Positions 1-13,254 of a stretch of 23,885 nt of DNA are shown here, piece by piece. How positions within the stretch are numbered: position 1 is the stretch's first letter; the number at the start of each line of letters is the position of its first letter. The notes under the pieces are model-generated. The model saw only the letters and a program-made list of their open reading frames with translations. It ran no database searches and was not told where the DNA came from. The position numbers and the translations under genes are program-made. Origin of the DNA: a virus; the IMG/VR virus record IMGVR_UViG_3300025070_000241, positions 1 to 23,885 of that record. The stretch is one strand, 5' to 3'.

Positions 1-72
1 ATGCGAACAAAACAAAGTGTAGTAAAATAGTCCTGCGTTTATGTTTTAATATAGCCAAAATAGTTAAAACTT

Positions 73-342
73 TTAGCCCTGGTCAGTCCCTTTCCTGATC
101 AGGGCTTTTTTGTCTGATTTTTCAAGGATGTTTTGGAGGAACTTAATATAAGAGTCTCTTAATCTGTCCTTCAATATATCCTGTTTGCATATCTTCAGGG
201 CCTTCATAAAGTTGGCCCCTTTATTTCTTTCTTCGCAATGCTCATGGTAAACCTTATCATCCTCCTCATATGTTTCCTCACAATGAGGGCAGAAGTAGGG
301 CACGGGATAACTTTTAAAACCTAGAAACTCACTCATACCCAT
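73..342 (-). CDS. Small zinc-knuckle-like protein
   Basis: An 89-residue protein, last gene of the leftward early operon. Residues 18-36 hold a CPHC pair followed by HEHC (C18, C21, H33/H35, C36), which looks like a small zinc-binding knuckle. The C-terminal half is lysine-rich and predicted helical. The family is not recognised; nucleic-acid or protein binding is only inferred from the metal-site pattern and charge. The start overlaps the end of the upstream gene by 14 nt, and a second Met two codons in (336) is equally possible. The 3' end of the gene forms one arm of the rightward terminator at 75-111. Confidence 0.7.
   Translation of the reverse strand: MGMSEFLGFKSYPVPYFCPHCEETYEEDDKVYHEHCEERNKGANFMKALKICKQDILKDRLRDSYIKFLQNILEKSDKKALIRKGTDQG
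75..111 (+). terminator. Rho-independent terminator, rightward
   Basis: A 12-bp stem (75-86 with 95-106, one G-U pair) with an 8-nt loop is followed by six T on the + strand (106-111). The T-run is placed for transcripts coming from the left, not for the leftward operon whose last gene it overlaps. It therefore probably stops rightward transcription entering from before position 1. The stem may also help end leftward messages, but there is no good T-run on that side. Confidence 0.75.
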
Positions 343-550
343 TTACTTTCAGGCATTCAATAATTCGATCAAAAGCCTGCTTCGTCTCTTCCCATCCTGG
401 CCTGCCTTCCATTTCGTCCACAATGCTTTCCAGTAATTCAGCATCAGCATCAACCTGTTCATCCTTGTCTAACACTGGCTCAGGTTCTAAATCTTGTGGT
501 CTACATAAGCAGTCATATTCCACATCATCTGCAAATTGATCTATGCTCAT
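329..550 (-). CDS. Small acidic protein of unknown function
   Basis: A 73-residue, strongly acidic protein (many D and E between residues 8 and 47) with a C-terminal amphipathic helix around 54-70. No family recognised. It overlaps the DUF3846-like gene before it by one base (TAATG type) and the zinc-knuckle gene after it by 14 nt, so it is probably translated by coupling in the early operon. Small acidic phage proteins often act as DNA mimics or host-protein inhibitors, but nothing here shows that directly. Confidence 0.65.
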   Translation of the reverse strand: MSIDQFADDVEYDCLCRPQDLEPEPVLDKDEQVDADAELLESIVDEMEGRPGWEETKQAFDRIIECLKVNGYE

Positions 551-771
551 CAGTCTAGGAATGCCTGGGGTTCTAATATAACAGCAGGGCCTGCGATAGG
601 AGTCCCTGCCAAAGCAGATGCTTCATTATTAATCATCTTGCCCTTTAACTGCCCGTCTTCGTCAAAGACTAACATTCTTCCGTCACTCAGGCTTAATTGT
701 TCAATATAACCCCCAACCTTTTTTTGTAAGGTTTCAATAGGTACTTGTTGTTTAATTATTTCAATATTCAT
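550..771 (-). CDS. DUF3846-like protein
   Basis: A 73-residue protein that fits the DUF3846 pattern: an N-terminal strand leading into GGYIEQLSLSDG, then a 'VFDEDGQLKGKMINNEAS' stretch (acidic turn, then the conserved N) and a C-terminal 'GPAVIL' strand. DUF3846 proteins are common in phages and plasmids of many bacteria; their function is unknown. The start overlaps the end of the MerR-like gene by 4 nt. The assignment comes from pattern recognition without a profile search. Confidence 0.75.
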   Translation of the reverse strand: MNIEIIKQQVPIETLQKKVGGYIEQLSLSDGRMLVFDEDGQLKGKMINNEASALAGTPIAGPAVILEPQAFLD

Positions 772-965
772 AGTCGCTTGATGTAATGCATCTCCTCCAT
801 TAATTTTTTTATGTCACATATTCTGTAACGAATTATTTTTTTCGACATTTTCACACAAGGTAAACGACCACTCTGTTCCCATCTGCGAATTGTCCTGGTG
901 CTAACTTCCAATTTGTCAGCAACCTGGTCCCTGGTTAATAATTGTATTTCTTCCACTCTTTCCAT
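768..965 (-). CDS. MerR/excisionase-type HTH protein
   Basis: A 65-residue single-domain DNA-binding protein. Residues 10-35 read LTRDQVADKLEVSTRTIRRW followed by EQSGRLP, the classic winged-helix HTH of the MerR/Xis (HTH_17) group, and the basic C-terminus (KMSKKIIRYR) forms the wing. Proteins of this size serve as excisionases or small repressors. No integrase is visible here, so a regulatory role is more likely. The gene overlaps the sigma-region-4-like gene by 31 nt, and it has no other Met near the N-terminus. Confidence 0.85.
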   Translation of the reverse strand: MERVEEIQLLTRDQVADKLEVSTRTIRRWEQSGRLPCVKMSKKIIRYRICDIKKLMEEMHYIKRL

Positions 966-1168
966 ATGGCTTGGTCCTTTGTTCTAATTTTTTTCAGTGC
1001 TTCATTTTCAATTTGTCGGATCCGTTCTTTTGTGCATTTGCAGAACTTGGCTATTTCATCATAAGTGAATGTTTCATATGGTAATTTCCTGTGTAACATT
1101 TGCCTAAGCCTAAGATTTGTCAGTTGCCTGCGTTGAACCCCAAGGGCGATATGGTTTTGCTTAACCAT
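935..1168 (-). CDS. Stand-alone sigma-70 region 4-like protein
   Basis: A 77-residue protein. Residues 33-62 (TYDEIAKFC, then TKERIRQIENEALKKIR) match the helix-turn-helix of sigma-70 region 4, which in full-length sigma factors contacts the -35 element. Nothing resembling region 2 (-10 recognition, core binding) is present. It may act as a transcription activator or appropriator that contacts core RNA polymerase or sigma, or simply as a DNA-binding protein. It overlaps the helicase gene by 8 nt (ATGGTTAA). A relative with about 14 of 31 identical residues over the HTH is encoded at 10932-11195 on the other arm. Confidence 0.75.
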   Translation of the reverse strand: MVKQNHIALGVQRRQLTNLRLRQMLHRKLPYETFTYDEIAKFCKCTKERIRQIENEALKKIRTKDQAIWKEWKKYNY

Positions 1169-2072
1169 TCGTGTACCTTTTAAACTCTACAGCCAATTCA
1201 CTACCTTCAATTAATGGTGGAGTCATTTTAATTGAACGGGCCTTCACCTGGGGCATAGATCGGCCTGTAACCTCCATAATTGCATGGTAGGGTTCATTGT
1301 GGTGAGAAAGGGTCAGTAGGCTATCAGGAAACCTGGCAAAGGCCCCTGCTCCTGATGCTCGATCAATATGGTTTTCCCGTCCCATATTACCCTTTCGGTA
1401 ATGATGGGACAAAAGCAGGGCTGAACCAGTTTGTTTCGTTATTGCCTGCAATTCCCGTAACATTTCGGTTACTGCAGAATTTGAGTTTTCGTCAAATTCT
1501 CCACCCCCTTCTAACATATAGATTGGGTCAATAAATATAGCATCCATTGCAGGTAAATCCGCCAACCTGGATTGCAACACTTCAATGAGTGTTTCCATAT
1601 CATAAACACAGGAACGCAGGGACCATAGGTATAAGTCTTCAGGCACCTGCTTTAATCCCTGTGCTAGGGCAATGCTCCAAAGTCTGTCCTGTGCATCATC
1701 CTTGTGCAATTCCAGGTCAATCATTAGCACCCTGGACTTGGCTACTTCCAGGCCCAGGAACTTATCCCCTGAAGCCAGGGATGTTGCCAGGGTTGAATAA
1801 AACCAACTTTTACCCATCTTAGATGGTGCTGTTAGTAATACATTGTCACCCACTCGAAATAATTTATCCACCAAAGGTTTTCTTTTAATTAATTCATATT
1901 GTGGTGGAAATTCTGAGCCAGGAATAATAGGAGGCAATCCACCTGGGTCATTAAGATCCAAATTAGGGTCTTTATATAAGTCTTTTTCAGTCCTGTTGAA
2001 CCTAGTTTTTTCGGTATGCAAATGCTTGGTTTGTTCAACCAGGTCTTTGACGAAATTAATTGAATCATCCAT
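1161..2072 (-). CDS. RepA-type replicative helicase (AAA_25, RecA fold)
   Basis: A 303-residue ATPase of the RepA/DnaB superfamily. Walker A is APSKMGKS (82-89), an acidic strand MIDLE follows at 117-121, Walker B is AIFIDP (178-183), a SHH sensor lies at 222-224, and the RepA-type GAGAFAR loop is at 241-247. In phages and plasmids such proteins form hexamers that unwind DNA at the fork. It follows the primase gene with an 8-nt overlap (ATGGATGA), so primase and helicase are translationally coupled and probably work together. The length is close to RSF1010 RepA. An additional N-terminal extension of about 60 residues is polar and may bind a partner. Confidence 0.88.
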   Translation of the reverse strand: MDDSINFVKDLVEQTKHLHTEKTRFNRTEKDLYKDPNLDLNDPGGLPPIIPGSEFPPQYELIKRKPLVDKLFRVGDNVLLTAPSKMGKSWFYSTLATSLASGDKFLGLEVAKSRVLMIDLELHKDDAQDRLWSIALAQGLKQVPEDLYLWSLRSCVYDMETLIEVLQSRLADLPAMDAIFIDPIYMLEGGGEFDENSNSAVTEMLRELQAITKQTGSALLLSHHYRKGNMGRENHIDRASGAGAFARFPDSLLTLSHHNEPYHAIMEVTGRSMPQVKARSIKMTPPLIEGSELAVEFKRYTNG

Positions 2073-3036
2073 AGTAAATTACTTTCTGTATTTTGTTGTT
2101 ATCTGTTCTCTTACCCCAGGGCATACGGACCAATTGACTTGGCCTGAGTGAAGCAGGGTCTGCACCTAACATGGTTGCCAAATTAAGGAATTTATAAACT
2201 TTCCTTTCATCTTTGTTTTCCACTTGAAACCAGGCATGTAGGCTTTTATTGCCTGACCAAACTACCATCCTAAGTGGCATGTCTTTTGCCAGTCTGTCAA
2301 TCAACCCTGCCTGTGTGTCCCAATTGCCTGCAATATTTGGCAAGTCACTTTCAAATACTACGAATTTTCGTGACAATATATTATCCAGGCACCTGCCCCT
2401 GTCATGCCCCTTTAGTGGATTAGGGCACAAATATTGGTAAGGTTCCAATCCATCTTTAATCCAGTCTTCACATGCTTTTACATCTCGGCCATTAAACACT
2501 TCTTTACACAAATGAAGAAGTGTTTCATCAGCATAAAGATTAGCCAATATTTCAGCCTGGCTAGGAATGCTATCTGAACGGGAACGAAGGTCATCAATGT
2601 CCCCCCTGCAACCAAACTCATTAATTAGTTCATTACTAACTTTTTTCTTTGGCCTTACATAGCGTTTTGTTGTCTCATCAGTTGCCTGGTAAGTATAGTT
2701 TACAGCCCGTTCAATTTCACCTGGTTCTAATTCTCTCCTGGTTACTTTTTCCGATGCCTTGTACATCATGTCCACAGCCTTTTCAGGTGGAACATTACAG
2801 GATTTTAAAATACCTGCACTTTTTACAATGCTTACATGATACCCATATCCATTTTTGTCCAGTCCATCTAATAATCTAGTTAATTTATCATGGGGACTAG
2901 ACCCCTTATTTAGTCTTGCCATTTCATCACCTTTCCAGTCCCAGGGACAATCAAAATTGTTTCGGTATGGGTCATCCCATAACCATGCCAAAGCTAAGGC
3001 AGTTTCAATTTCAACTGAATTTTCTGAGTATGTCAT
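2065..3036 (-). CDS. Prim-pol-like DNA primase (AEP superfamily)
   Basis: A 323-residue protein. The C-terminal half looks like an archaeo-eukaryotic-type primase: VVFESD (226-231) is a motif I candidate with two acids, SGNKSLHAWF (261-270) is motif II with its conserved histidine, and VRMPWGKR (303-310) resembles the region that follows in phage and plasmid members. Residues 1-125 contain a helical region similar to the helical domains seen beside such primases. It would make primers for the helicase encoded next to it. The typical third acid is not obvious, so loss of activity cannot be excluded. Start at 3036, overlapping the coiled-coil gene by 26 nt. Confidence 0.75.
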   Translation of the reverse strand: MTYSENSVEIETALALAWLWDDPYRNNFDCPWDWKGDEMARLNKGSSPHDKLTRLLDGLDKNGYGYHVSIVKSAGILKSCNVPPEKAVDMMYKASEKVTRRELEPGEIERAVNYTYQATDETTKRYVRPKKKVSNELINEFGCRGDIDDLRSRSDSIPSQAEILANLYADETLLHLCKEVFNGRDVKACEDWIKDGLEPYQYLCPNPLKGHDRGRCLDNILSRKFVVFESDLPNIAGNWDTQAGLIDRLAKDMPLRMVVWSGNKSLHAWFQVENKDERKVYKFLNLATMLGADPASLRPSQLVRMPWGKRTDNNKIQKVIYYG

Positions 3037-3244
3037 TTAATTGTTTAATAATATTTTCAAGCACAGCCCTTTTGCTTACATCCGATTCAAGCATGTGCTT
3101 TAGCCTTTGTTGAAGAGTTTGTATTTCCTCGGATAATTGTTCACATTTTATCTGATTTTCAGATTTAGTAATTTCACAATGACCCCCTAGTTCAAGGGTC
3201 ACCTGTGTATCCAGGTTAAGAGTTTGCTGACTTTCGCTTAACAT
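3011..3244 (-). CDS. Small coiled-coil protein
   Basis: A 77-residue hypothetical protein. Residues 35-75 (EQLSEEIQTLQQRLKHM onwards) have heptad spacing of L, I and M and should form a coiled coil; the N-terminal 30 residues are polar. No enzyme motif is present. It lies just before the primase in the operon and overlaps both neighbours, so it could be a small partner or loader for the primase-helicase pair, but that is only inference from position. Confidence 0.65.
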   Translation of the reverse strand: MLSESQQTLNLDTQVTLELGGHCEITKSENQIKCEQLSEEIQTLQQRLKHMLESDVSKRAVLENIIKQLNDILRKFS

Positions 3245-3527
3245 AAAATGCTAACTCCTCGGTTGGACACAATTGATGGATCTTTACTTTTATAGCCTGT
3301 AAATAAAACCATTGATCAATCACTTCATCTTCCAGGTCATTTATATTTACATCCACGGGTAAATATCCCCCATGCTCCTGTTGACCCTTATCATATTTTG
3401 CCCTGGCTTTTTTAAGAAACCTTTCCATTGCAGTTTCTCGAAACCTGGCAGATTTTATGAGTAAACTTTCCTCTTCGGCATTTTCCTCTTCGGCCTTGCC
3501 ATTAGCCACATTTTCCATCTCTTGCAT
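3216..3527 (-). CDS. MazG-like nucleotide pyrophosphohydrolase-type protein
   Basis: A 103-residue helical protein. GQQEHGG (48-54) and LEDEVIDQWFYLQ (65-77) give E51, E66, E68 and D71, the acid spacing seen in short phage MazG/all-alpha NTP pyrophosphatase relatives. Such enzymes hydrolyse NTPs or dNTPs to monophosphates and can change (p)ppGpp or nucleotide pools during infection. The start at 3527 is supported by a good SD (GGAAGGGG, ending about 6 nt upstream), although this gives a 73-nt overlap with the previous gene. Residues 10-21 are an acidic low-complexity run. The family call is moderate. Confidence 0.6.
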   Translation of the reverse strand: MQEMENVANGKAEEENAEEESLLIKSARFRETAMERFLKKARAKYDKGQQEHGGYLPVDVNINDLEDEVIDQWFYLQAIKVKIHQLCPTEELAFYVKRKSANS

Positions 3528-3700
3528 AATTCTTCCCCTTCCATTTTAGTTTTGGCCCTGGTTGCCAGGGTAGGAAAATTATCCCCCCTGGCTAACCTTG
3601 GACCGATTGGTTGCTCGCCCATGACTGCATTCCAGTATCGACAGACCCATCTAGGTCCTATTTTTACCAGTACAATATCTTCCTCAAGATCGAGGGTCAT
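3455..3700 (-). CDS. Hypothetical protein
   Basis: An 81-residue basic protein between the exonuclease and the MazG-like gene. It starts 17 nt inside the end of the exonuclease gene and overlaps the following gene by 73 nt. Residues 8-30 (IVLVKIGPRWVCRYWNAVMG) suggest a beta hairpin, and the last 15 residues are rich in K and R, perhaps because they share DNA with the acidic stretch of the next protein. No family is recognised, so no function is assigned. Confidence 0.6.
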   Translation of the reverse strand: MTLDLEEDIVLVKIGPRWVCRYWNAVMGEQPIGPRLARGDNFPTLATRAKTKMEGEELCKRWKMWLMARPKRKMPKRKVYS

Positions 3701-4439
3701 ACTTGTTCCTTATTCGCCACAGAGCATTCACTATTTTGAATGTTTCATAACACTCTTCCAGTTTGCTAGGTTTGTACGAATGAACCCTAAACTTTGCCAT
3801 TCCATCATCATCAAACTCAGTGGTGCTTATGTAGGCATTTGCACCCCACACTTCATGGTTATTTAGTGCCTGTTGCCCCCATTGGGCACAGGCATAAGCA
3901 CTAATTTGTTCAGGTTGACCAGGGTAGGGTGACGACGGGATTTTCTTGGTGCTTTTCCAGTCTAATATGAAAGGTTGGCCCCCTTTGGTATGAGCGATAA
4001 TATCTGCCGTGCCTGCATACCCCTCTTCAGTGTTGATGACTACCCGTTCGCATTCCTCAAGCTCAAAGCCCTTTCCGTTAAAGTAATTAACGGCAGGGGT
4101 CACAAATGGCATTAAATCGATATTAATCTGCTTCAGGGTTTTTACCCCTGTCAGTACAGATTCAATTCCATCATGGATCCTGGTCCCTAAGTTTGAAGCT
4201 GAATCATCCCCGTAGATTGCATTTTTGACCCTGCGTTGAAAGTCTTTTAATGACTCACCTTTTTTAGGGCCATTATTATATGCTTCCTCAATCATTGAGT
4301 TTTGCTTCCACATTTCAAGCCCAGGGGCAGACTCTATTTTCTGTATTTCAGTTACAGAAAAATAGAGTCCTTCCTTTTTGGCTTTTGCAGGGGTTAAATC
4401 AAAATGAGGGTTACCCTCTCTGTCGTAACAATGAGGCAT
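3684..4439 (-). CDS. RecB/Cas4-like PD-(D/E)XK exonuclease
   Basis: A 251-residue nuclease of the PDDEXK_1 group. Visible motifs are GTRIHDGIE (H89), GYAGTAD (D146), ILDWKS (D160, K162) and QISAYA (Q178, Y182), in the order and spacing of RecB-family nucleases. Phage members process double-strand ends for recombination or degrade host DNA. It is encoded directly after the SSB-like protein with a TAATG overlap, a common recombination pairing (exonuclease plus single-strand binding or annealing protein). A four-cysteine iron-sulphur cluster as in Cas4 is not evident. Confidence 0.88.
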   Translation of the reverse strand: MPHCYDREGNPHFDLTPAKAKKEGLYFSVTEIQKIESAPGLEMWKQNSMIEEAYNNGPKKGESLKDFQRRVKNAIYGDDSASNLGTRIHDGIESVLTGVKTLKQINIDLMPFVTPAVNYFNGKGFELEECERVVINTEEGYAGTADIIAHTKGGQPFILDWKSTKKIPSSPYPGQPEQISAYACAQWGQQALNNHEVWGANAYISTTEFDDDGMAKFRVHSYKPSKLEECYETFKIVNALWRIRNKYDPRS

Positions 4440-5047
4440 TAGAATGGATCCTCTTCGTCATCATCCTGTTTTTTCTTGGTAGCCTTTTTCTTAGCAGGCT
4501 TATCCATTTTAGCAGGTTCTTCCTCTTCATCTTCCTCACTAATCCAGTCAGGAATGGGTGATCTTCTATCGCCAGGGACAGCAGTGTTGATTGAAGGAAC
4601 ATCGTCTTCAAGTTTCTTATTAATCTTTGCAACAGACTGCACGAAGCTGTATTCCTTACCTAACTTGGACTTGCGTGTGCCTATTGTGACCATTACTTTC
4701 TTCCCTATTTCATCACAATAATCATATTCTTCGCCCAATGGTGGAAGTTTGCCCCGTATTGCTGTTAATAGTTTGACTAGGTTGCTTCTTTCGTCAGCAG
4801 ATTGGGTCATTTCACCCGTCATTGCCAGGCAGGTATCACCATCATCATCAGTGAAGGCAAATAAGAACCTGGTAACATCTCGTTCAATCATTTCACCAGG
4901 GTTATTAAAGTCTTTAACTAAGACTCCGTCATTATCAAGTATATCAAGAAGAAGACCAGGAAAGGTACCTTCTATTGCTTTTTCATCTGACAGGTTCCAG
5001 GACCGATTGGATCCACCTGTTTTAGGTTTTACTTTTAATATTGCCAT
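4439..5047 (-). CDS. Single-stranded DNA-binding protein-like
   Basis: A 202-residue protein whose N-terminal 140 residues are beta-rich (OB-fold-like) with a conserved-looking KVMVTIGTRKSKLGKEYSFV segment near 118-137. This is followed by a disordered linker with alternating acidic and lysine blocks and a final acidic tip DDDEEDPF. The tip closely resembles the C-terminal tail by which SSB recruits partners (E. coli: DDDIPF). It probably coats ssDNA during replication and recombination and recruits the adjacent exonuclease and primase. It is not obviously homologous to E. coli SSB in its core. The overlapping rightward open frame is rejected. Confidence 0.78.
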   Translation of the reverse strand: MAILKVKPKTGGSNRSWNLSDEKAIEGTFPGLLLDILDNDGVLVKDFNNPGEMIERDVTRFLFAFTDDDGDTCLAMTGEMTQSADERSNLVKLLTAIRGKLPPLGEEYDYCDEIGKKVMVTIGTRKSKLGKEYSFVQSVAKINKKLEDDVPSINTAVPGDRRSPIPDWISEEDEEEEPAKMDKPAKKKATKKKQDDDEEDPF

Positions 5048-5050
5048 AAT

Positions 5051-5200
5051 TTATTTTAGGTTTTGGTTTAGTAGTTTTATTACGAATTTAGTCATTGATA
5101 TGCCTTCAGCATATGCCTGGACCATTAAATGTTTTTTTAGTTCAACAGGTAGGCACACACTTAATTGTGCCCCTGGTGTTCGTGGATTAGATTTTTCCAT
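5051..5200 (-). CDS. Small ribbon-helix-helix (Arc/CopG-like) protein
   Basis: A 49-residue protein read directly on the - strand (ATG at 5200-5198, stop at 5053-5051). The N-terminal strand AQLSVCLPVELKKHLMVQA followed by the short helix SMTKFVIKLL is the RHH layout: an alternating strand, helix, turn, helix. Such proteins dimerise and bind short operators. It overlaps the gene before it by 14 nt and ends three nt before the SSB start, so it is a bona fide operon member. Its target is unknown; the repeats at 6313-6342 are one candidate. Confidence 0.75.
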   Translation of the reverse strand: MEKSNPRTPGAQLSVCLPVELKKHLMVQAYAEGISMTKFVIKLLNQNLK

Positions 5201-5465
5201 TATTACTTTCCTCAAACACACCATATTCTTTATGATTTTTGAGTGATTTGATGTTTAAATAATAATCAATATTCTTCCATACATCTTGAGAAAAAGTATG
5301 CCAGGTTCCGTCACTGAACAATATGTGGGCACCTGCACAATAAGCATAGTCTTCAATTTTATGACCCTCGACTGGTTCCCACCTAGTTTTTACAAGAATA
5401 ATGTGATCAGTGTTTATAAATTTTAATGTTTGATATTGATTCGAGTTTTTTAATTGAATTATCAT
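5187..5465 (-). CDS. Small beta-rich protein, FlbD-like shape
   Basis: A 92-residue protein. The preferred start is Met at 5465, ten nt past the resolvase stop; an upstream Met at 5501 would overlap the resolvase by 26 nt. The pattern MIIQLK, then DHIILVKTR, and then ILFSDGTWHTFSQDVWKNID resembles the short beta-sheet proteins of the FlbD type (strand, strand, 'L-DG-xxxV', final helix). The similarity is by shape only. No catalytic motif is seen and no function is assigned. Confidence 0.65.
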   Translation of the reverse strand: MIIQLKNSNQYQTLKFINTDHIILVKTRWEPVEGHKIEDYAYCAGAHILFSDGTWHTFSQDVWKNIDYYLNIKSLKNHKEYGVFEESNNGKI

Positions 5466-5475
5466 GTTTTTATTC

Positions 5476-5919
5476 TCATTTATTAAAAAACCAGTGAGCA
5501 ATTAAGATTGCATCGGCAGTTTTAAGGTTAACTTTTAATTTTGGATACAACCTGAGTGCATGTTCTTTCAGTATTCTTTTCCGTTGTGGCCCTGTGCTTT
5601 TATGCAAGTTGGGTAATCCCTTTTGCCACACTTTTGGACTTACCAGGTGACAGGGTATTTGCAGGCCCATTGCCAGGCCCTCAAATTGACCACAATTCTT
5701 TCCTAGTTTAAACCCTGCTGAAGATGGGATGTTTTTCCCTACAAAAGGGGGAACATCTTCCAGGACCATTTGTACAGGTTCTGTTTCATTTGCCAGGTAA
5801 GGACGAATTTCATCCAAAAAGTCTGCCATTGTGGTGAAGTTTTCAGCAACACAGACATTGTTGTTGGAGCAAATTGCATATCCACCTGATTTTCCAGGGT
5901 CTACTGCTATTGTAATCAT
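5476..5919 (-). CDS. RuvC-like Holliday junction resolvase
   Basis: A 147-residue protein beginning ITIAVDPGKSGG (D7), with VLEDVPP (E54) and KTADAILIAHW (D136) supplying the acidic residues of the RuvC/RNase H fold. Phage members resolve branched DNA before packaging. The start at 5919 is chosen because the protein then begins at the first catalytic strand and its ATG overlaps the stop of the 42-residue membrane-protein gene (ATGA). A longer version from 5982 would add 21 residues from another gene's region. A second C-terminal acid is not clear. Confidence 0.88.
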   Translation of the reverse strand: MITIAVDPGKSGGYAICSNNNVCVAENFTTMADFLDEIRPYLANETEPVQMVLEDVPPFVGKNIPSSAGFKLGKNCGQFEGLAMGLQIPCHLVSPKVWQKGLPNLHKSTGPQRKRILKEHALRLYPKLKVNLKTADAILIAHWFFNK

Positions 5920-6044
5920 CTTGTTATTAAAGACCCTGCCCCAAATAAAGATACTGCAAAGCAAAACATGACATAAAACCATGCCAGGAGTGCTAATGTG
6001 AACATAGCTATAAATAACATCCTGGATTCTTTTTCCTTACACAT
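5916..6044 (-). CDS. Small single-span membrane protein
   Basis: A 42-residue protein read directly on the - strand (ATG at 6044, TGA at 5918-5916). Residues 1-8 are charged, 9-36 form one long hydrophobic stretch (LFIAMFTLALLAWFYVMFCF and on), and it ends with TR. The ATG overlaps the upstream RHH gene by 8 nt (ATGTGTAA), and the stop overlaps the resolvase ATG by 4 nt, which strongly supports it. Being early, it is more likely a membrane effector or superinfection-exclusion-type protein than a holin, but no family is recognised. Confidence 0.7.
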   Translation of the reverse strand: MCKEKESRMLFIAMFTLALLAWFYVMFCFAVSLFGAGSLITR

Positions 6045-6216
6045 TTTGACCTTCTTCTTTTAAGAGCTTGTCAATTTGTCTTTTAACTAATGCAGAAACG
6101 GATCTGTCTTGATCAAATGCCAGTTTCCCTAGTTTTGCTTTATACCCTTTAGGCAAATGCACACTTACAATTTCCCTTTCTTTAGTTATGCCAACCTTTT
6201 TTGTTTTAATAGTCAT
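6037..6216 (-). CDS. Ribbon-helix-helix regulator, first gene of early operon
   Basis: A 59-residue protein (ATG at 6216, TAA at 6039-6037). EIVSVHLPKGYKAKLGKLA gives the RHH strand and first helix, and SVSALVKRQIDKLLKEE the second helix; the first 14 residues are basic. It is the promoter-proximal gene of the leftward operon and faces the RHH gene at 6443-6688 across a 226-bp divergent region, so auto-regulation or cross-regulation through that region is likely. It resembles plasmid CopG/ParD-type proteins in size, but no toxin partner is seen. Confidence 0.78.
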   Translation of the reverse strand: MTIKTKKVGITKEREIVSVHLPKGYKAKLGKLAFDQDRSVSALVKRQIDKLLKEEGQNV

Positions 6217-6312
6217 AGTTAATATTTCCGTGGTTTAGTTAATGTGGTAGTTGGTACATTAAAAAACATATAAACATAAATGATCAACACTTTTTGCATT
6301 AAATATGAAAAC

Positions 6313-6342
6313 TGAATACATCTGCATACATTTGAATAATTG
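6313..6342. repeat. Three tandem imperfect 10-bp repeats, operator-like
   Basis: TGAATACATC, TGCATACATT and TGAATAATTG follow one another without a gap. Sites one helical turn apart are typical of operators bound by RHH dimers in cooperative arrays. Two genes for RHH proteins flank the region and a third lies in the operon. Confidence 0.6.
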
Positions 6343-6387
6343 TTATTTTAATGTTGACAAAAGTGTTCTAGAATTTTCAAAGTGTAA

Positions 6388-6404
6388 CTTTGCATCCCTT
6401 TGCA
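6388..6404. repeat. CTTTGCA direct repeat, 10-bp period
   Basis: CTTTGCA occurs at 6388-6394 and 6398-6404. The second copy ends four bases before a possible -35 element, so a protein bound here could control the rightward RHH gene. Confidence 0.45.
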
Positions 6405-6407
6405 ATA

Positions 6408-6438
6408 TTACAAAATAATAAAACCCACCCTATATTTG
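6408..6438 (+). promoter_or_regulatory. Candidate promoter giving a leaderless transcript
   Basis: TTACAA (6408-6413), 17 bp, then TATATT (6431-6436), extended to TATATTTG. The expected start point, about 7 bases after the box, falls on the ATG at 6443, and there is no SD between box and ATG. The -35 matches only three of six consensus bases. TATATTTG also fits the Bacteroidota -7 pattern TAnnTTTG, but no TTTG lies at the usual distance upstream. Confidence 0.45.
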
Positions 6439-6442
6439 CCCA

Positions 6443-6688
6443 ATGAGTGAAAAAAGAATATCCGTTGTCATCAGTGACGAACAACTTGTCGTACTAGATC
6501 AATTGCAAAAAGAAATGGATATTGATTTATCTAAGTTAATCAGGTGGTGCATTGATACCTGCATTGACCTGGGTAAAAATCAGGATGACATGCATAAATT
6601 GCTTGGCCTGGAAATATCTGCTAGTCTTCGTGGCCTGCATTCAGGTAAAAGCAATTATCTCCTTGACTCCATATCCAGGACCAAGTAA
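6443..6688 (+). CDS. Ribbon-helix-helix repressor-like protein
   Basis: An 81-residue protein. The N-terminal strand RISVVISDEQLVVLDQLQKEM and helix LSKLIRWCIDTCIDL give an RHH DNA-binding fold at residues 4-48; the C-terminal 30 residues are of unknown role. It is the only rightward gene in the left 8 kb and stands alone between two leftward operons, like a phage repressor or early-late switch. It has no SD, and the start may be leaderless. A hairpin follows at 6698-6733. Confidence 0.78.
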   Translation: MSEKRISVVISDEQLVVLDQLQKEMDIDLSKLIRWCIDTCIDLGKNQDDMHKLLGLEISASLRGLHSGKSNYLLDSISRTK

Positions 6689-6697
6689 TCCTTATAA

Positions 6698-6733
6698 TAC
6701 CCCTGCGTGGGCCATAAGCCCAAAGCAGGGGTA
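6698..6733 (+). terminator. Hairpin after the RHH gene
   Basis: A perfect 9-bp stem TACCCCTGC / GCAGGGGTA (6698-6706 with 6725-6733) encloses a second 4-bp stem GGGC / GCCC (6709-6712 with 6718-6721). It starts ten bases after the stop codon at 6688. There is no T-run, so termination may need a factor, or the structure may protect the 3' end of the message. Confidence 0.55.
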
Positions 6734-6847
6734 ATGTATTAATATATACAGGTATATACAGGGAACATCAGGTAAGTTATGTTGCATGTTTATCAGGGAA
6801 CTTCATGTATGTTACCTGGTAGTAAATTATACACAGGTTATTCAGGG

Positions 6848-6888
6848 ATGGTCTTTTAAGGGTCCATTAGGGACCTAAAAAAGACCAT
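6848..6888. terminator. Long interrupted hairpin between convergent genes
   Basis: ATGGTCTTTT (6848-6857) pairs with 6879-6888, and GGTCC (6861-6865) pairs with GGACC (6871-6875) around a 5-nt loop, with a 3-nt internal mismatch between them. It lies past the end of the leftward operon that finishes at 6931 and past the rightward RHH gene, so it probably separates the two convergent units. The remainder of 6734-6930 shows only scattered CAGG-containing words and no gene. Confidence 0.5.
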
Positions 6889-6930
6889 AAACTTATCAGG
6901 GGTATTTATGCACCAAGGCAGAAAACCAAG

Positions 6931-7437
6931 CTACGCATCAGGGGTAATATCTATATGAGGTGTTTCCCTCATTGCATTTAATTCCTTCTGCACTTCATCC
7001 AGGGTTACTACCTTTTTATGCTCAACAATACTGGTTGCTTGTCCCAAGTCTGACTTTTCCTTGTCCCTAAGTATTCCAAATGCAATAGGTAATACCCCTG
7101 CAGGAATTTGATCAGATTCTAGTTTTTCTATTATCTTCATCAGACATGCCTGGGATGCATATGAAGTTAAACCCATTGTCAGGTTCTGCACCTTATCAAT
7201 AGTTTTAGTTTCCCTCTTAGCAATAGCAGTAATGGTTTCAGGGGCACACTTGTTATCCTTGGCTATCCTGGTTAATGCCTTACCTTCAGATAATTCCTGG
7301 ACAACCTTGGCATACCTTTCAGGATCCTTCTTTGCCAGTTTATCCCCTGTGAACAGAGAAGGGCATATATCTTCCTCTGTAGTCAGGGCAGGCAAGTTAT
7401 CAGGTATTACTATCTTTCTCTTTTTCTTGGTTGGCAT
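6931..7437 (-). CDS. HTH protein, possible small terminase
   Basis: A 168-residue protein with a basic N-terminus (PTKKKRKIVIP) and a helix-turn-helix at about 50-73 (ALTRIAKDNKCAPETITAIAKRE), followed by a helical region and a short tail. The length and the order HTH, then helices, fit a small terminase (TerS) that recognises packaging DNA. However, it is read leftward, away from terL, and is the last gene of the short operon, so an ordinary regulator is also possible. Its start is one nt after the stop of the gene before it. Confidence 0.6.
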   Translation of the reverse strand: MPTKKKRKIVIPDNLPALTTEEDICPSLFTGDKLAKKDPERYAKVVQELSEGKALTRIAKDNKCAPETITAIAKRETKTIDKVQNLTMGLTSYASQACLMKIIEKLESDQIPAGVLPIAFGILRDKEKSDLGQATSIVEHKKVVTLDEVQKELNAMRETPHIDITPDA

Positions 7438-7438
7438 G

Positions 7439-7717
7439 TTACTCCTTTATTTCAATAGGGAATATATAAACAGGGCTAACTTCTCTCGGCATACAATCCT
7501 GGATATTATGTGAAAAATGCTCCCAACAATCATCCCTGGTTAAATTCTTGTCCTGTTGCTGTATTACTTCCAGGATCTTTTCAATATCATAGACTACCCT
7601 GGTGCATTCAGCATTAATACCAATGATGCAGTCATTGTATTCGTCTGTTAATACATGCAATCCATGTTCTAAGACCAAGTCAGGTAATACAGGTTCACTC
7701 TTTATTGGTGCTATCAT
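7439..7717 (-). CDS. Conserved phage protein of unknown function
   Basis: A 92-residue protein. DCIIGINAECTRVVYDIEKILEVI (residues 29-52), then an acidic turn and EHFSHNIQ resembles a small protein family common in phages and plasmids, with an 'IxG...VVYD.EKI...E.F.yN' pattern; its role is unknown. It overlaps the upstream gene by 23 nt. No membrane segment or catalytic motif is present. Confidence 0.65.
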   Translation of the reverse strand: MIAPIKSEPVLPDLVLEHGLHVLTDEYNDCIIGINAECTRVVYDIEKILEVIQQQDKNLTRDDCWEHFSHNIQDCMPREVSPVYIFPIEIKE

Positions 7718-7892
7718 TTGGATCCTTGACTTTCAGGGTTATTTGCTTGGCTTCAATAACATTAGGGTAAATACCCTGCTCTGCATGTTTAGCCAGGTGA
7801 TCAATGCAATTAGTCACTGCCTGCTCAATAGTCTCACCAGGTACAACTATTTGTTCCAGGGACATTACCCATGCTTTTTCTGTGTCAGTCAT
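7695..7892 (-). CDS. Hypothetical protein
   Basis: A 65-residue protein with a helical N-terminal half (TIEQAVTNCIDHLAKHA) and a strand near the end (EAKQITLKVKDP). The family is not recognised. The start codon overlaps the stop of the 50-residue gene (ATGA), and the 3' end overlaps the next gene by 23 nt, so it is almost certainly translated as part of the leftward four-gene operon. Confidence 0.65.
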   Translation of the reverse strand: MTDTEKAWVMSLEQIVVPGETIEQAVTNCIDHLAKHAEQGIYPNVIEAKQITLKVKDPNDSTNKE

Positions 7893-8041
7893 TTCCTTTT
7901 CGCAGTTTTAGCACTGGCTTTAAATGCTTTAGCAGTTGGTGCCCCCTTACTACCTGCCTTCCTCATTCTTTCCCCTGAACCCCCTGCAATACGGGCCTTC
8001 TTGGCGTGAATATTTGCGTACAATCCTTTTTTTGCTTTCAT
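7889..8041 (-). CDS. Small very basic phage protein
   Basis: A 50-residue protein found by direct reading (ATG at 8041-8039, TGA at 7891-7889). It is extremely rich in K, R, A and G: KKGLYANIHAKKARIAGGSG, then RMRKAGSKGAPTAKAFKASA. Proteins of this pattern (GLYxNIHxK...GSGE.MRKxGSKGAPT) are frequent in marine and environmental phages and have no known function; the sequence suggests nucleic-acid binding. It is the first gene of the short leftward operon. Confidence 0.8.
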   Translation of the reverse strand: MKAKKGLYANIHAKKARIAGGSGERMRKAGSKGAPTAKAFKASAKTAKRK

Positions 8042-8056
8042 AATTGGTGCAAGGAT

Positions 8057-8074
8057 ATTGAAATGTTTTTCAAT
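8057..8074. promoter_or_regulatory. Palindrome ATTGAAA-N4-TTTCAAT, operator-like
   Basis: A perfect 7-bp inverted repeat with a 4-base centre lies 15 bases upstream of the start of the 50-residue gene. Its position fits an operator or promoter-overlapping site for the short leftward operon. Confidence 0.45.
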
Positions 8075-8099
8075 TAGCTAGGTATGGCATTATTTTTCA

Positions 8100-8108
8100 C
8101 CCCCCCCC
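8100..8108. repeat. C9 homopolymer tract
   Basis: Nine consecutive C on the + strand, in an A/T-rich non-coding context. It can pair with the G-rich tract at 8216-8228 on the same strand. Confidence 0.8.
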
Positions 8109-8182
8109 TGGTATTTAATGCATATATTATCCACTGCTACAGAATAATAACACGCTAATTATCAGGCACTTATGAATTAACC

Positions 8183-8208
8183 TGTCAATTATCTGTCAGT
8201 TTTTGTCA
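8183..8208. repeat. Three helically phased TGTCA repeats
   Basis: TGTCA at 8183-8187, 8194-8198 and 8204-8208, with steps of 11 and 10 bp. Further copies lie at 8285-8289 (inverted) and about 8388-8392. The spacing places all three on one face of the helix, as expected for a protein-binding array. Confidence 0.5.
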
Positions 8209-8215
8209 GGGCGAA

Positions 8216-8228
8216 GGGGGGGAGGGGG
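8216..8228. repeat. G7-A-G5 purine tract
   Basis: Seven G, one A and five G on the + strand, directly after the TGTCA array. It could form unusual structures (quadruplex, triplex) or pair with the C9 tract or with the CCCCC at 8266-8270. Confidence 0.75.
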
Positions 8229-8229
8229 T

Positions 8230-8242
8230 GTTGATTATCAAC
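8230..8242. promoter_or_regulatory. Palindrome GTTGAT-T-ATCAAC
   Basis: A perfect 6-bp inverted repeat around one T, next to the G-rich tract. The size fits an operator half-site pair for a dimeric HTH protein. Confidence 0.45.
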
Positions 8243-8364
8243 GATTTACGATTCCACGACCGATTCCCCCAAATGAAAAAAAATTGACAATTAGCCAGGG
8301 GGGTAAACCCTAATAATCCCTGCACTGATGGGGGCTACAGGTTCGGCAATAAATCCTACAGGGT

Positions 8365-8418
8365 TTATCCCCTAACAACTTTTTATCCTGTCAAGGGGAT
8401 AATAAGGGCATTCCCTTA
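8365..8418. promoter_or_regulatory. Two consecutive hairpins upstream of terL
   Basis: TTATCCCCT (8365-8373) pairs with AGGGGATAA (8394-8402) over a 20-base loop. Immediately after, TAAGGG (8403-8408) pairs with CCCTTA (8413-8418) over a 4-base loop. They would sit in the 5' leader of any late transcript started further upstream, or could mark the packaging site. Neither has a T-run, so they are not classic terminators. Confidence 0.45.
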
Positions 8419-8488
8419 ATATCCCATTAATATGGACACAGGTGGACATGACTAGTCTACCCTGGAAAACCCTGCTTAACATAGGCAC

Positions 8489-10150
8489 ATGGCATTGTCC
8501 TGGACTCCACATCCTATTTTAACCATCCCGTCAAGGGATGAGCAACTGGCTATGGGTGCGGAAAGGTTGATGGAGTATTGGGAGAGAAGGGAAGGGGCAA
8601 TTGAACGGGAAATTGAGGATCCATTTAGGTATGGTACTGAATTACCGCACTGGAAAAAGGTGGATGAAATATTGGAAACAAAAGCAGAATTGCTACTGCT
8701 TGGTGGTAATCGTTCATCGAAAACCGAGGCAATTGCGAAACGGGTTGTTAAGTCCCTGGTAGCAAACCCAGGCAGTGTAATATGGTGTTTTACTGCCACC
8801 AGTCAGAATAGCATAGCTAACCAACAGGCCGTGGTGCATAAGTATTTACCTGCTGAATTTAAGACCCTGGGCAGAAGTAGGGTTCATTATGTCTCTTATT
8901 CGCAGAAGAACGGGTATACTTCATCTAGTTTTATTTTACCGAATCGAAGCACCTGTGTATTTCGTAACTGGTCCCAAAATATTGAAACTATTGAGGGTGG
9001 TGAAGTTGGTTGCAGGGAACAGGCAAAACCAGGTACGCATAATATAGGAATTTGGTTTGACGAAGAGGTGCCCCAAAATTTTTTAAATACAGGGCGGTAT
9101 AGGTGTTTATCTAGGGCAGACCCTAAAACAGGGATCCCTGCCAGGGTAATCAGTACCTTTACGACAATATCAGGGTGGACCAGTGTGGTTAATAGTTTTT
9201 TGTCAGGGGCTGTTACCCTGGAAGACAAGGAAGCAGAATTATTACCTGGTGAACGGGTCCCTGTTGTACAACAACCTGTACGGAAGAATGCACAAATATT
9301 ATATTTTCATACGGCAGACAACCCTTATGGGGGTTGGCCTGCCATGAAAATGCAATTGGAAGGGGCAAAAAGGGATGAAATTTTAACCAGGGCCTACGGG
9401 GTCCCAACCAAGCCAAGCAACACGACATTCAGGAATTTAGACTCCCGTGTTGTAATGAAGCACCAGGATATTCCAGTTGTTAAAGATAAGAAGAATAACC
9501 CCTGTAATTATATTTTATCCATAGACCCTGCAGGTAGTAAATCCTGGTTTATTCTGTTAGTGGCTGTTGATGTTTTCGGTGTGCATTATGTTTTAAAGGA
9601 ATGGCCTGGTGTGGATATTGGGGAATGGGCTGACCTGGATAAAGGGGAAAAAGGAGTACCAGGGGATGCATCTAAGCCAAATGGTAATGGGATAGGAGAC
9701 TACGCAAAAATAATCAGGAAAATGCTCAAGGGCATTGATGATGAAGAAGTGGTAGGTATGCACGGGAATGTTGAAATAATAATTGACCCCAGGATGGGAA
9801 GTGCAACTTATGCAAAAAGCGAAGGAACGAGTAATATAATTAGTGACCTTCAAGATCATGGAATAAATGTTTACCCTGCTGAAGGCTTGCCCATAGAAGA
9901 TGGATTGCAGGCAATTAATTCTCTTTTGTCTTATGACAAAGAGAAAGAAATTGACCTGAGCAACAGGCCCAAATTGTTTTTTTCTGACCAGGTAGGTAAC
10001 ACTTTATTTTGCTGTATGAATTACAGCATAGATGACGGAATGAAGGCTGTGACCAAGGACCCTGTTGACTGCCTTCGATATGTGGCAATTGGCAATTATT
10101 CCTACATTGAGGATTCAGAATTAAGAATAAGTGAGCCAGGTGGTTACTGA
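8489..10150 (+). CDS. terL: Terminase large subunit
   Basis: A 553-residue packaging motor. The ATPase domain has Walker A GGNRSSKT (72-79), Walker B IGIWFDEE (186-193) and a coupling motif STFTTISGW near 222-230. The C-terminal nuclease has the three expected acids in SIDPAG (D346), IIDPRMG (D433) and PVDCLRY (D527). It pumps DNA into the prohead through the portal and cuts the concatemer. It opens the rightward late region; the leader has no real SD. The last codon overlaps the ATG of the next gene (TGATG). Confidence 0.95.
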   Translation: MALSWTPHPILTIPSRDEQLAMGAERLMEYWERREGAIEREIEDPFRYGTELPHWKKVDEILETKAELLLLGGNRSSKTEAIAKRVVKSLVANPGSVIWCFTATSQNSIANQQAVVHKYLPAEFKTLGRSRVHYVSYSQKNGYTSSSFILPNRSTCVFRNWSQNIETIEGGEVGCREQAKPGTHNIGIWFDEEVPQNFLNTGRYRCLSRADPKTGIPARVISTFTTISGWTSVVNSFLSGAVTLEDKEAELLPGERVPVVQQPVRKNAQILYFHTADNPYGGWPAMKMQLEGAKRDEILTRAYGVPTKPSNTTFRNLDSRVVMKHQDIPVVKDKKNNPCNYILSIDPAGSKSWFILLVAVDVFGVHYVLKEWPGVDIGEWADLDKGEKGVPGDASKPNGNGIGDYAKIIRKMLKGIDDEEVVGMHGNVEIIIDPRMGSATYAKSEGTSNIISDLQDHGINVYPAEGLPIEDGLQAINSLLSYDKEKEIDLSNRPKLFFSDQVGNTLFCCMNYSIDDGMKAVTKDPVDCLRYVAIGNYSYIEDSELRISEPGGY

Positions 10151-10659
10151 TGCATAAGATAGTTATAGAGGCTAACGAAATTGAACACCTGATTCAGGTT
10201 AGCCTGCTTAGATGCTCGCATAATAGAATGAGCAAAAGGCCTGGATTAAATATTATGAATTGCTTGCAGGGGTGCATAGGAGAATTGGCATTTGCAAAAT
10301 ACTTTAATTTTTTCCCTGACTTTACCTGGGAGACCAGGACCCACACGGGCACCAGTTCAAAATGGTATGACTTTAAGCTGAATAATGGAAAAACCTATGA
10401 CATAAAAACGAGTCCCAAAGACTCGTTTGCTATTAATCAGCAGGCAACCACTTTCAAGAATCAGCCTGATTATTTTGTTTTTGTTCAAACTCCAATTGTG
10501 GATCTGAACAAACAAATAACTGATCAAACTGCAATTATACATGGGTACAGCACAATAAAAAATATTCGGAATTGTTTTTTAAGTTACTCAGGCAAAACCC
10601 CCTTTTTTCTAATTAAGAAAAATAACATAAAATCACTTACCAGGAAACAATATGCGTAA
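10150..10659 (+). CDS. PD-(D/E)XK nuclease-like protein
   Basis: A 169-residue protein. IGELAFAKYF supplies E45 in a helix, and WYDFKLNNGKTYDIKTS supplies D74, D84 and K86, the strand-turn-strand D...DxK layout of restriction-type nucleases. It lies between terL and the portal, overlapping terL by one base and the next gene by 8 nt, so it belongs to the late operon. It could trim or nick packaged DNA, attack host DNA, or be a selfish endonuclease settled in the packaging module. Similarity beyond the core motif is not recognised. Confidence 0.65.
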   Translation: MHKIVIEANEIEHLIQVSLLRCSHNRMSKRPGLNIMNCLQGCIGELAFAKYFNFFPDFTWETRTHTGTSSKWYDFKLNNGKTYDIKTSPKDSFAINQQATTFKNQPDYFVFVQTPIVDLNKQITDQTAIIHGYSTIKNIRNCFLSYSGKTPFFLIKKNNIKSLTRKQYA

Positions 10660-10957
10660 AGTATCTAAAGAAGAATTACAGGCCCTTCGTGATAAAGGAT
10701 TATCCTACCAAAAAATTAGTGATAAACTGGACATTTCAGTAAGCACGATCAAGCGAAGATTAAGGGAGCCTAAACCTGAAGTGTTCCCCAGGTATCAATC
10801 TGCTGTGGTGACCAGGTTATTGGTCAATGCCCGTTTAATTCAGGTAACATATGACGGAATTACCCGTATTGCTGTTAAAAAACCAGGTTATTTATACAAA
10901 TTAAAACAAGAAGTGACCCTTGAGCTAGTGGATGAAAAAACAGCAAGAGTCCTGTGA
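10652..10957 (+). CDS. Small HTH protein
   Basis: A 101-residue protein. Residues 5-38 (EELQALRDKGLSYQKISDKL, then DISVSTIKRRLRE) form a resolvase/Hin-type helix-turn-helix, followed by a beta-rich C-terminal half (residues 55-101). It is an alternative small-terminase candidate, because it lies in the packaging module and has an HTH plus an oligomerisation-like domain, or a late regulator. The start overlaps the nuclease-like gene by 8 nt (ATGCGTAA) and has a fair SD (AGGA about 8 nt upstream). Confidence 0.7.
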   Translation: MRKVSKEELQALRDKGLSYQKISDKLDISVSTIKRRLREPKPEVFPRYQSAVVTRLLVNARLIQVTYDGITRIAVKKPGYLYKLKQEVTLELVDEKTARVL

Positions 10958-11195
10958 AACTAAACAGGAACGGGCTGACAGGATAGACACACTGCTTCGT
11001 TACTTAATTGTTAAAAACGCATCCCTGACAAAACCAGGGGATGATTACCCACAAATGACCCTGGACGAAATAGCTGAGTTTTGTGGCACTGACAAAATGG
11101 TAATATTTAGGGCGGAGCAATCTGCCCTGGCTAAGTTCAAGTCTAAAATTCCTGATTTTAATTTATACTTAGGGTTGGATGGAAAAACCCAATGA
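10932..11195 (+). CDS. Degenerate sigma-70 region 4-like protein
   Basis: An 87-residue protein with MTLDEIAEFCGTDKMVIFRA followed by EQSALAKFKSK at residues 41-71. It matches the HTH of the early protein at 935-1168 at about 14 of 31 positions, including DEIA, FC and the AL pair of the last helix, but it has lost the RERIRQIE core that is typical of true sigma region 4. The two are therefore probably diverged paralogues or distant cousins. It overlaps its neighbours by 26 and 17 nt in the late operon. A role in late transcription is inferred only. Confidence 0.6.
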   Translation: MKKQQESCETKQERADRIDTLLRYLIVKNASLTKPGDDYPQMTLDEIAEFCGTDKMVIFRAEQSALAKFKSKIPDFNLYLGLDGKTQ

Positions 11196-13254
11196 ACAAA
11201 ACTATTCAGAAGAACCTGACATTGAGTCACTCCAGGAGGATTTAAACCGATGCAGGGGTAATCTTTCCTACTATAAGGACAAGGCCGATACCGCCCGTGA
11301 TACTAGGTTTGGAGCCTGGCCAGGGCGAAATTACAGAACTAATAAGAAAGAAGGTCAACATGCCTTTCCCTGGCCTGGAGCCAGTGACCAGGCAGTTGGT
11401 TTAATTGACCAAATTATTTGTGCTGATGTTGCCATGATGAAACGGGCAGTTTCAGGTGGTAATTTAAAAGCAATGCCAACTGAGCCGACTGACATACGGG
11501 TTGCCAGTTTAGTTGGCAAATACATGAAATGGACTTTGTCCGAAATGGATGAATTTGACCGAGAGGTTGGGATCCTGGCAAACAATGTTCAAATGTATGG
11601 CAACGGAGTCCTGGGCACCTATTGGCACAGAAAAATTGATCGGTATTACGCACCAATTTCCCTGGAAGAAATTGCTCAACAGAGTCCTGATTTAGCTGAA
11701 GCCATTATGGCAAAAGATAAGTCAGCAAATGCATTACTTGCCCAAATATTTCCAAATTTAAAAAAGAAACGGATTAATAAAATAATAAAAGACCTGGCTG
11801 AAAACGGGCAGGCAGAAGTGCCCAGGGAAAGAATGGTCAGCAACAGACCATGCATAAAATCCTATGAAATTGGCAGGGACATAATTTTCGACAGCAATGT
11901 ATTAAGTGACATTCAGAATGCCAGGGCAGTTTACTGCATTCATCATCATTCCCCTGAATCGTTAAAGGAAATGGTATTCACCCAGGGTTTTGACCCTAAG
12001 TATGTGGATGAATTAATTGAAAAAGTTGGGTCAAATAATGCATCCAGTGACTTTACAGATTTTCCTGAACACAGGAACCACGATGATATTGAACACTATG
12101 AAGGTTTGATCAGGTTGGTTAGTTGTTACAGAAGGGAACTGGATGAAGATGGAGTGCCTTTGATAAGTCACACCATCTTCAGTGAAGACTTAGACGGGTA
12201 CGCAAAGCATGAATTAAATTCCTATGCCCAGGGTAAATATCCATTTACCAGTTTTTGCAGGGAAACTATAAACCATCGCATTTTAGACTCACGGGGATTA
12301 TGTGAAATTTTACAGCCTTATGAGCAGGCTATAAAAGTTGAAATTGATTCACGAATTGATCGTGCATCATTGTCAACTATTCCACCTATTATGTTCCAAA
12401 CGGGCCGTAAGCCTGAAAGAATAGGGCCTGGTAGTTTTATTCCAATTCGCAGACCTGGCGAAGTTCAGTTTATGGACATACCTCCATATTCACCTGCATC
12501 GACAGAGGTGGAAAATGAAATGCGAATGATTGCCAACAAGATTGCAGGCAGGCCCACAAGTAATGAAGACCAGGTTGAGGCAAATCTAATTCGCCAGGAA
12601 ATGGTAAGCATGTGGCTATCTAATTGGAAACCTGTGTTAAAACAACTTTGGCACCTGCAAAGAACATATGGAGGTGCTGAACAATGGGCACGGGCTACTG
12701 GGAATGAACAGGATATACAGGTTGCATTTGAGGAAACTAGTGAGCAGTTTGACTTTAAACTTACCTTTAATGCTGACTCATTAGACCAGGATAAGGTCCT
12801 GGATAAATTAAAAGCACTCGGTGAAGTTTTTGCTCAGTACGACAGGCAGGGCCAAGCTAATTTTGGGGAGTTGATGAAGTTATATGCTGAATCAATTGAC
12901 CCTAACCTGGCTGACCGATTGATCATGCCTCAACAGGCATCAAGTCAAAAAGAAATTGAGGAAACAAGTGCTGACTTAGCTAAAATTGCATCAGGGCAAG
13001 TTGTAAATGCTCCTGAGAATAGTAACACACAATTACGAAGACAGGTAGTTGAAGGATTCCTTGAGGGGACCGAAGAAATACCTGCAATAGATGTACAGCA
13101 AAGGCTTCAAAGTGATGAAGGTTTTAAAGCCAGGCTAGATAATTATATGAAACAAATTAGCTTCCAGGACCAACAACGAAGAAATGGGCTAACGGGCAAA
13201 TTAGGGGCACCTCCTGGTAATGTCCCTGCAACCAATGCTGTCGCAAATGGATAA
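11179..13254 (+). CDS. Portal protein
   Basis: A 691-residue protein of podovirus portal size and position, directly upstream of the scaffold and capsid genes. The N-terminal part has the FPWPGASDQAVGLIDQII-type segment and a helical body (LSEMDEFDREVGILANNVQM); residues 385-480 carry the stem-like helices and REMxMIANKIAGRPTSN-like text; the C-terminal 120 residues are low-complexity and Q/N-rich. Twelve copies would form the DNA entry channel and docking ring for the terminase. The family call rests on context plus these segments, not on a profile search. Confidence 0.85.
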   Translation: MEKPNEQNYSEEPDIESLQEDLNRCRGNLSYYKDKADTARDTRFGAWPGRNYRTNKKEGQHAFPWPGASDQAVGLIDQIICADVAMMKRAVSGGNLKAMPTEPTDIRVASLVGKYMKWTLSEMDEFDREVGILANNVQMYGNGVLGTYWHRKIDRYYAPISLEEIAQQSPDLAEAIMAKDKSANALLAQIFPNLKKKRINKIIKDLAENGQAEVPRERMVSNRPCIKSYEIGRDIIFDSNVLSDIQNARAVYCIHHHSPESLKEMVFTQGFDPKYVDELIEKVGSNNASSDFTDFPEHRNHDDIEHYEGLIRLVSCYRRELDEDGVPLISHTIFSEDLDGYAKHELNSYAQGKYPFTSFCRETINHRILDSRGLCEILQPYEQAIKVEIDSRIDRASLSTIPPIMFQTGRKPERIGPGSFIPIRRPGEVQFMDIPPYSPASTEVENEMRMIANKIAGRPTSNEDQVEANLIRQEMVSMWLSNWKPVLKQLWHLQRTYGGAEQWARATGNEQDIQVAFEETSEQFDFKLTFNADSLDQDKVLDKLKALGEVFAQYDRQGQANFGELMKLYAESIDPNLADRLIMPQQASSQKEIEETSADLAKIASGQVVNAPENSNTQLRRQVVEGFLEGTEEIPAIDVQQRLQSDEGFKARLDNYMKQISFQDQQRRNGLTGKLGAPPGNVPATNAVANG

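Follow-up and report, generated by a model that had tools for sequence, protein, structure and literature searches.

Two stand-alone helix-turn-helix proteins of the sigma region 4 class, one in each transcription arm of a putative marine podovirus lineage

To our knowledge, the timing of late transcription in phages without an RNA polymerase or sigma factor of their own has been worked out for a few models only. Small phage-encoded late activators (RinA, ArpU and Ltr) act on the packaging and structural genes of Gram-positive phages (PMC13123087). In phage T4, gp33/gp55 and AsiA/MotA act through the sigma region 4/beta-flap site of the host RNA polymerase and switch between gene classes (PMC2988020, PMC2988021). 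Among these, gp33 is a documented flap-binding mimic of sigma region 4; its sequence shows no discernible resemblance to sigma, and it works together with gp55 (PMC2988020). In sigma70, the specificity for the -35 element is set by residues R584, E585 and R588 (PMC2613000). Here we describe two small phage proteins that share with sigma-70 region 4 (PF04545; SigA/RpoD, e.g. PDB 1KU3/1KU7) the helix-turn-helix (HTH) core TLxEI..F.G......R.E..AL.K. Unlike sigma-70, they are stand-alone proteins of 72-87 aa (one, in contig G042, is longer) without regions 2 or 3.

The window, by which we mean the whole stretch of DNA analysed, is a tailed-phage fragment of 23,885 nt (23.9 kb), IMG/VR record IMGVR_UViG_3300025070_000241. 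Its early arm runs leftward (about 1-8041) and its late arm rightward from 8489 on, and the sign of the GC skew flips where the two meet. The late arm is headed by the terminase large subunit gene terL (8489..10150, + strand; PHROG terL, 8.4e-9), followed by an endonuclease-like gene, a gene for an HTH protein with a beta-rich tail (HTH-beta; 10652..10957, +; HTH matches), the late sigma region 4-like gene, and the genes for portal, scaffold and SU10-type major capsid proteins; the endonuclease, scaffold and beta-tail assignments were made by sequence inspection. The portal gene (11179..13254, +) was assigned through portal-annotated phage homologues and is syntenic in all relatives. In the early arm, the early sigma region 4-like gene has as its upstream neighbour a gene for a RepA-like AAA helicase (1161..2072, -; placed by synteny, the helicase call by sequence inspection), an arrangement found in the window's clade and in G042. 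Its 3' end is overlapped by a gene for a MerR/excisionase-like HTH protein (768..965, -; Pfam HTH_17, 2.1e-8; PHROG excisionase/regulator, 8e-10).

Two closely related contigs, G001 (35.1 kb) and G002 (33.6 kb), have the same arms and, in addition, a phage integrase-like gene read from the sequence, so the group is probably temperate; as a whole it is probably a lineage of temperate marine podoviruses. The nearest annotated phage is C75C1, whose portal protein is 33% identical. The lineage appears to use the RNA polymerase of its host. A search for a T7-type RNA polymerase (PF00940) gave no match in the phage records, but the control genomes gave none either. A scan for sigma70-type promoters across 5900-11300 gave fewer matches than were obtained in shuffles and is not informative on promoters in that region. 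The early-arm regulators (the sigma region 4-like, MerR-like and RHH-like proteins and that of 550-771; regions 550-1168 and 6443-6688) are 44-67% identical to their counterparts in G001/G002, against 82-89% for RepA, primase and TerL. This faster change is as expected of specificity factors. G001 and G002 also encode giant proteins (L031:15541-19947 and L033:2-2185) in which a DIRFMP-like motif recurs between modules.

The two genes at the centre of this analysis are open reading frames for proteins of 77 aa in the early arm (935..1168, -) and 87 aa in the late arm (10932..11195, +), both as given by the initial annotation, whose count of 14 identical residues among 31 HTH positions was exact (FTYDEIAKFCKCTKERIRQIENEALKKIRTK aligned with MTLDEIAEFCGTDKMVIFRAEQSALAKFKSK). 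A direct BLASTP comparison of the two proteins aligned 15 identities over 34 positions (30.4 bits, E 3e-7 as a single comparison), and none of 20000 shuffles of the 28-residue core of the late protein equalled its score against the early proteins. Comparison of the late with the early family, profile to profile, gave a probability of 97.5% (E 7e-12, again for a single comparison). The 43.6 kb contig G042 provides a further intermediate; its late protein reads TYDEIAEFCGVDRMVIYRTEMEAIRKIRSK, and a 51-residue stretch of it can be aligned with the early protein of the window (E 1e-9, single comparison). The similarity is thus not a chance one, and on sequence grounds both proteins belong to the sigma region 4 class.

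For the early protein this assignment is direct. It matched Pfam Sigma70_r4 (PF04545) at 2.9e-9 with 36.7 bits, above the cut-off of 24.1, and sigma region 4 in the PDB at 2e-7; NCBIfam RpoD_Cterm was matched at 7.2e-8, below the full-length cut-off of that model. For the late protein it was reached through relatives. Taken alone, the window's late protein has no match in Pfam, and Pfam, NCBIfam and PHROGs all fail to recognise the family from it. When the TerL alignment was used for a scan, a second lineage emerged, here clade B (L046, L047, L048, L049, L050 and L081; TerL about 51% identical). In five clade B contigs, late homologues likewise lie between the HTH-beta and portal genes. With clade B included, PF04545 was matched by 7 of the 11 family members at E<=1 (best 2.8e-6), and the profile of the family found sigmaA region 4 as its leading match in the PDB (6.8e-5). 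The late family therefore appears to be a member of the sigma region 4 class, newly recognised here through intermediates, and the placement of one such HTH protein in each transcription arm stands. Outside these contigs, a profile scan of bacterial genome contigs gave no relatives of the late family, and tblastn found no match to the late protein in annotated phage genomes.

The late protein has a predicted helix at residues 11-29 and an HTH core from T43 to K70. Across the 11 members of the family, 13 residues are invariant (R17, I18, D19, L22, T43, L44, I47, F50, G52, R60, E62, A65 and L66). Its recognition helix is conserved in the window's clade as (K/I/R)MVI(F/Q/Y)RxE, and the late gene has an omega of 0.09-0.19 (Nei-Gojobori; synonymous sites near saturation in several pairs). 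The early gene is likewise maintained by purifying selection, with an omega of 0.08-0.20 by the same method and with the same near-saturation in several pairs. The late copy had initially been called degenerate; given a single conserved family under purifying selection, with a recognition helix conserved in its own way, neither that word nor "lost" is supported. A pseudogene or decayed copy is ruled out by the omega values together with orthologues in 13 contigs and in clade B.

The recognition helices of the two proteins differ. At the positions of sigma70 R584, E585 and R588, the alignment places K47, E48 and R51 in the window's early protein, and K55, M56 and F59 in the late protein, in which the contact pattern is absent. 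The initial annotation had the early copy keeping an RERIRQIE-like core that the late copy had lost. The difference itself is real, the early protein having KERIRQIE and the late one KMVIFRAE; the loss is not borne out, since the late helix follows a conserved pattern of its own. Nor does the contrast extend to the group as a rule, because early proteins elsewhere also depart from the sigma70 pattern (P, Q and M in G042; R/Q, R/Q and R/S in clade B), and the matches to the -35 contacts are retained by the early protein in the window's own clade only.

Both genes are present in all seven contigs that span both positions (G000, G001, G002, G042, G012, G014 and G018), so the possibility that the two never occur together can be set aside. 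This co-occurrence reaches down to about 51% TerL identity, and the contigs with a single gene end short of the position of the other, as judged from locus coordinates. In a third lineage, with TerL about 33% identical (G020, G022, G023 and C75C1; 36-39 kb), neither gene was found. The early gene comes after repA in the window's clade and in G042, but in clade B it is found immediately upstream of the gene for primase. The late gene keeps a constant place across the lineages with the pair, with the HTH-beta gene on one side and the portal gene on the other. In the window, the end of the HTH-beta gene overlaps the late gene, and the end of the late gene is overlapped by the start of the portal gene. 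The HTH-beta gene (10652-10957) itself lies between terL and the late gene in all pair-bearing lineages, clade B and G042 among them.

Two trees were computed, the first with a wider set of sigma factors including ECF-type members and the second with five divergent sigma rows omitted. Both rest on fewer than 80 columns and carry long-branch warnings, and we make no claim on deep branching order. In the second tree (77 columns), the early and late phage proteins lie together on one side of a branch that sets them apart from the host sigmas (99/98), and the late proteins cluster together (92/71). Forcing the early and late proteins of the window's clade and of G042 into one group lowers the log-likelihood of this tree by 13.7 units (p-AU 0.056). 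The first tree does not unite the phage proteins, yet their union is not rejected (late and early as one clade, p-AU 0.26). A recent duplication of the early gene as the source of the late one is disfavoured by the p-AU of 0.056. Both proteins appear to belong to the sigma region 4 class and not to different HTH families, and the safe reading of their sequences is an old split within that class, with no sign of recent duplication.

What these proteins do is a more tentative matter, and their DNA binding, targets, timing and interplay we infer. At a little under an even chance, our leading interpretation is that both would be stand-alone HTH regulators of the sigma region 4 type acting at promoters of the host RNA polymerase, neither being a complete sigma factor. 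Such regulation, at promoters of the phage or of the host, would be the simplest mechanism. The early protein is predicted to bind -35-like or phage-specific promoter DNA, probably tuning phage promoters, and perhaps also touches the beta-flap of the polymerase. Its mode of action would resemble that of Ltr/RinA, the late activators known from Gram-positive phages, from which it differs in size (about 130 aa in the activators, against 77-87 aa here) and to which no sequence membership was found: none of 10 records matched NCBIfam phage_rinA at E<=10, a search in which no control genome passed the cut-off either, and neither arpU nor rinA was among the NCBIfam matches listed. The late protein would be a distinct and old representative of this HTH class that is produced along with the portal and packaging proteins and reads a different site; most simply, it would regulate the late operon to which its own gene belongs, or turn off promoters used earlier.

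This interpretation builds on direct observations, namely the genes, their HTH class, co-occurrence, conserved position and purifying selection. Against it speak the weak structure models and the late protein's failure to match Pfam on its own. The AF2 models, computed from shallow alignments without clade B, have the expected helices at a mean pLDDT of 58.6 and 54.4, and their matches in the PDB include SigA region 4 at E values above 0.6, which are not significant. In favour of this interpretation, sigma region 2 (PF04542) had no match in 10 phage records, some of them fragments, with the control positive in 11 of 14 genomes; neither protein should thus be a full sigma factor, alone or with a phage partner.

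The position of the late gene inside the packaging operon fits a role in packaging or assembly equally well, and its fixed place beside the portal gene makes such a role a serious rival, although on balance we consider it unlikely. The late protein would then be a packaging or head-assembly accessory, for instance one binding a pac- or cos-like site or partnering the terminase, that uses an HTH of the sigma region 4 type and has no part in transcription. HTHs are common in small-terminase subunits. The order terL, HTH-beta, late gene, portal is invariable, the late reading frame overlaps both of its neighbours, and a near-invariant block lies immediately upstream of terL. The nearest profile relatives of the late protein, however, are sigma region 4 domains, with no packaging protein among them, and another weak candidate for the terminase small subunit (TerS) exists at 6931-7437 (-), with homologues in other pair-bearing lineages. 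This candidate is an HTH protein on the early strand. Its relative in clade B has a weak match (9.6e-4) to a PHROG of terminase small subunits, so the early arm may be where TerS is encoded. The near-invariant block (8150-8302; about 110-150 bp, six contigs) lies between the early and late arms and holds CTGTCAG/TTGTCAG repeats, a G-tract and AATTGACAATTAGCC; it is possibly a packaging site or a divergent control region.

The initial annotation had proposed an early/late switch, the two proteins acting in sequence or in opposition; they would then compete for, or successively occupy, the same promoters or the same site on RNA polymerase. The shared HTH class, the location in different arms, the presence of the pair in each of the seven spanning contigs and its joint absence from the third lineage all accord with this model, which we nevertheless regard as improbable. 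Of the four aligned contact positions, three differ between the two recognition helices, so the same site should not be read by both, and the best tree splits the two families and disfavours a recent duplication. Since several further DNA-binding proteins are encoded, nothing marks this pair as the switch, and the co-occurrence may merely reflect a conserved genome backbone. Very doubtful is a late protein that docks on the beta-flap as a sigma region 4 mimic without reading DNA and so alters late transcription in the manner of T4 gp33: gp33 offers the precedent (PMC2988020), and the late protein is of the sigma region 4 class without most of the residues aligned to the sigma70 -35 contacts, but gp33 lacks the sequence similarity to sigma that is recognisable here and acts with gp55, no sigma region 2-like partner was found, and the strong conservation of the late helix, with an Arg that never varies, points to a specific contact with something.

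The late proteins are named here as a family, one missed by Pfam, NCBIfam and PHROGs from the window's sequence alone. Whether the two stand-alone proteins, with no sigma region 2 beside them, could be successive or antagonistic readers of promoters on the host RNA polymerase we think doubtful; if they were, the switch would be made entirely of detached sigma region 4 domains, one early and one produced with the packaging operon. As a conserved pair of such domains, one per arm, they offer a small, testable candidate mechanism in an uncultured group of marine podoviruses.
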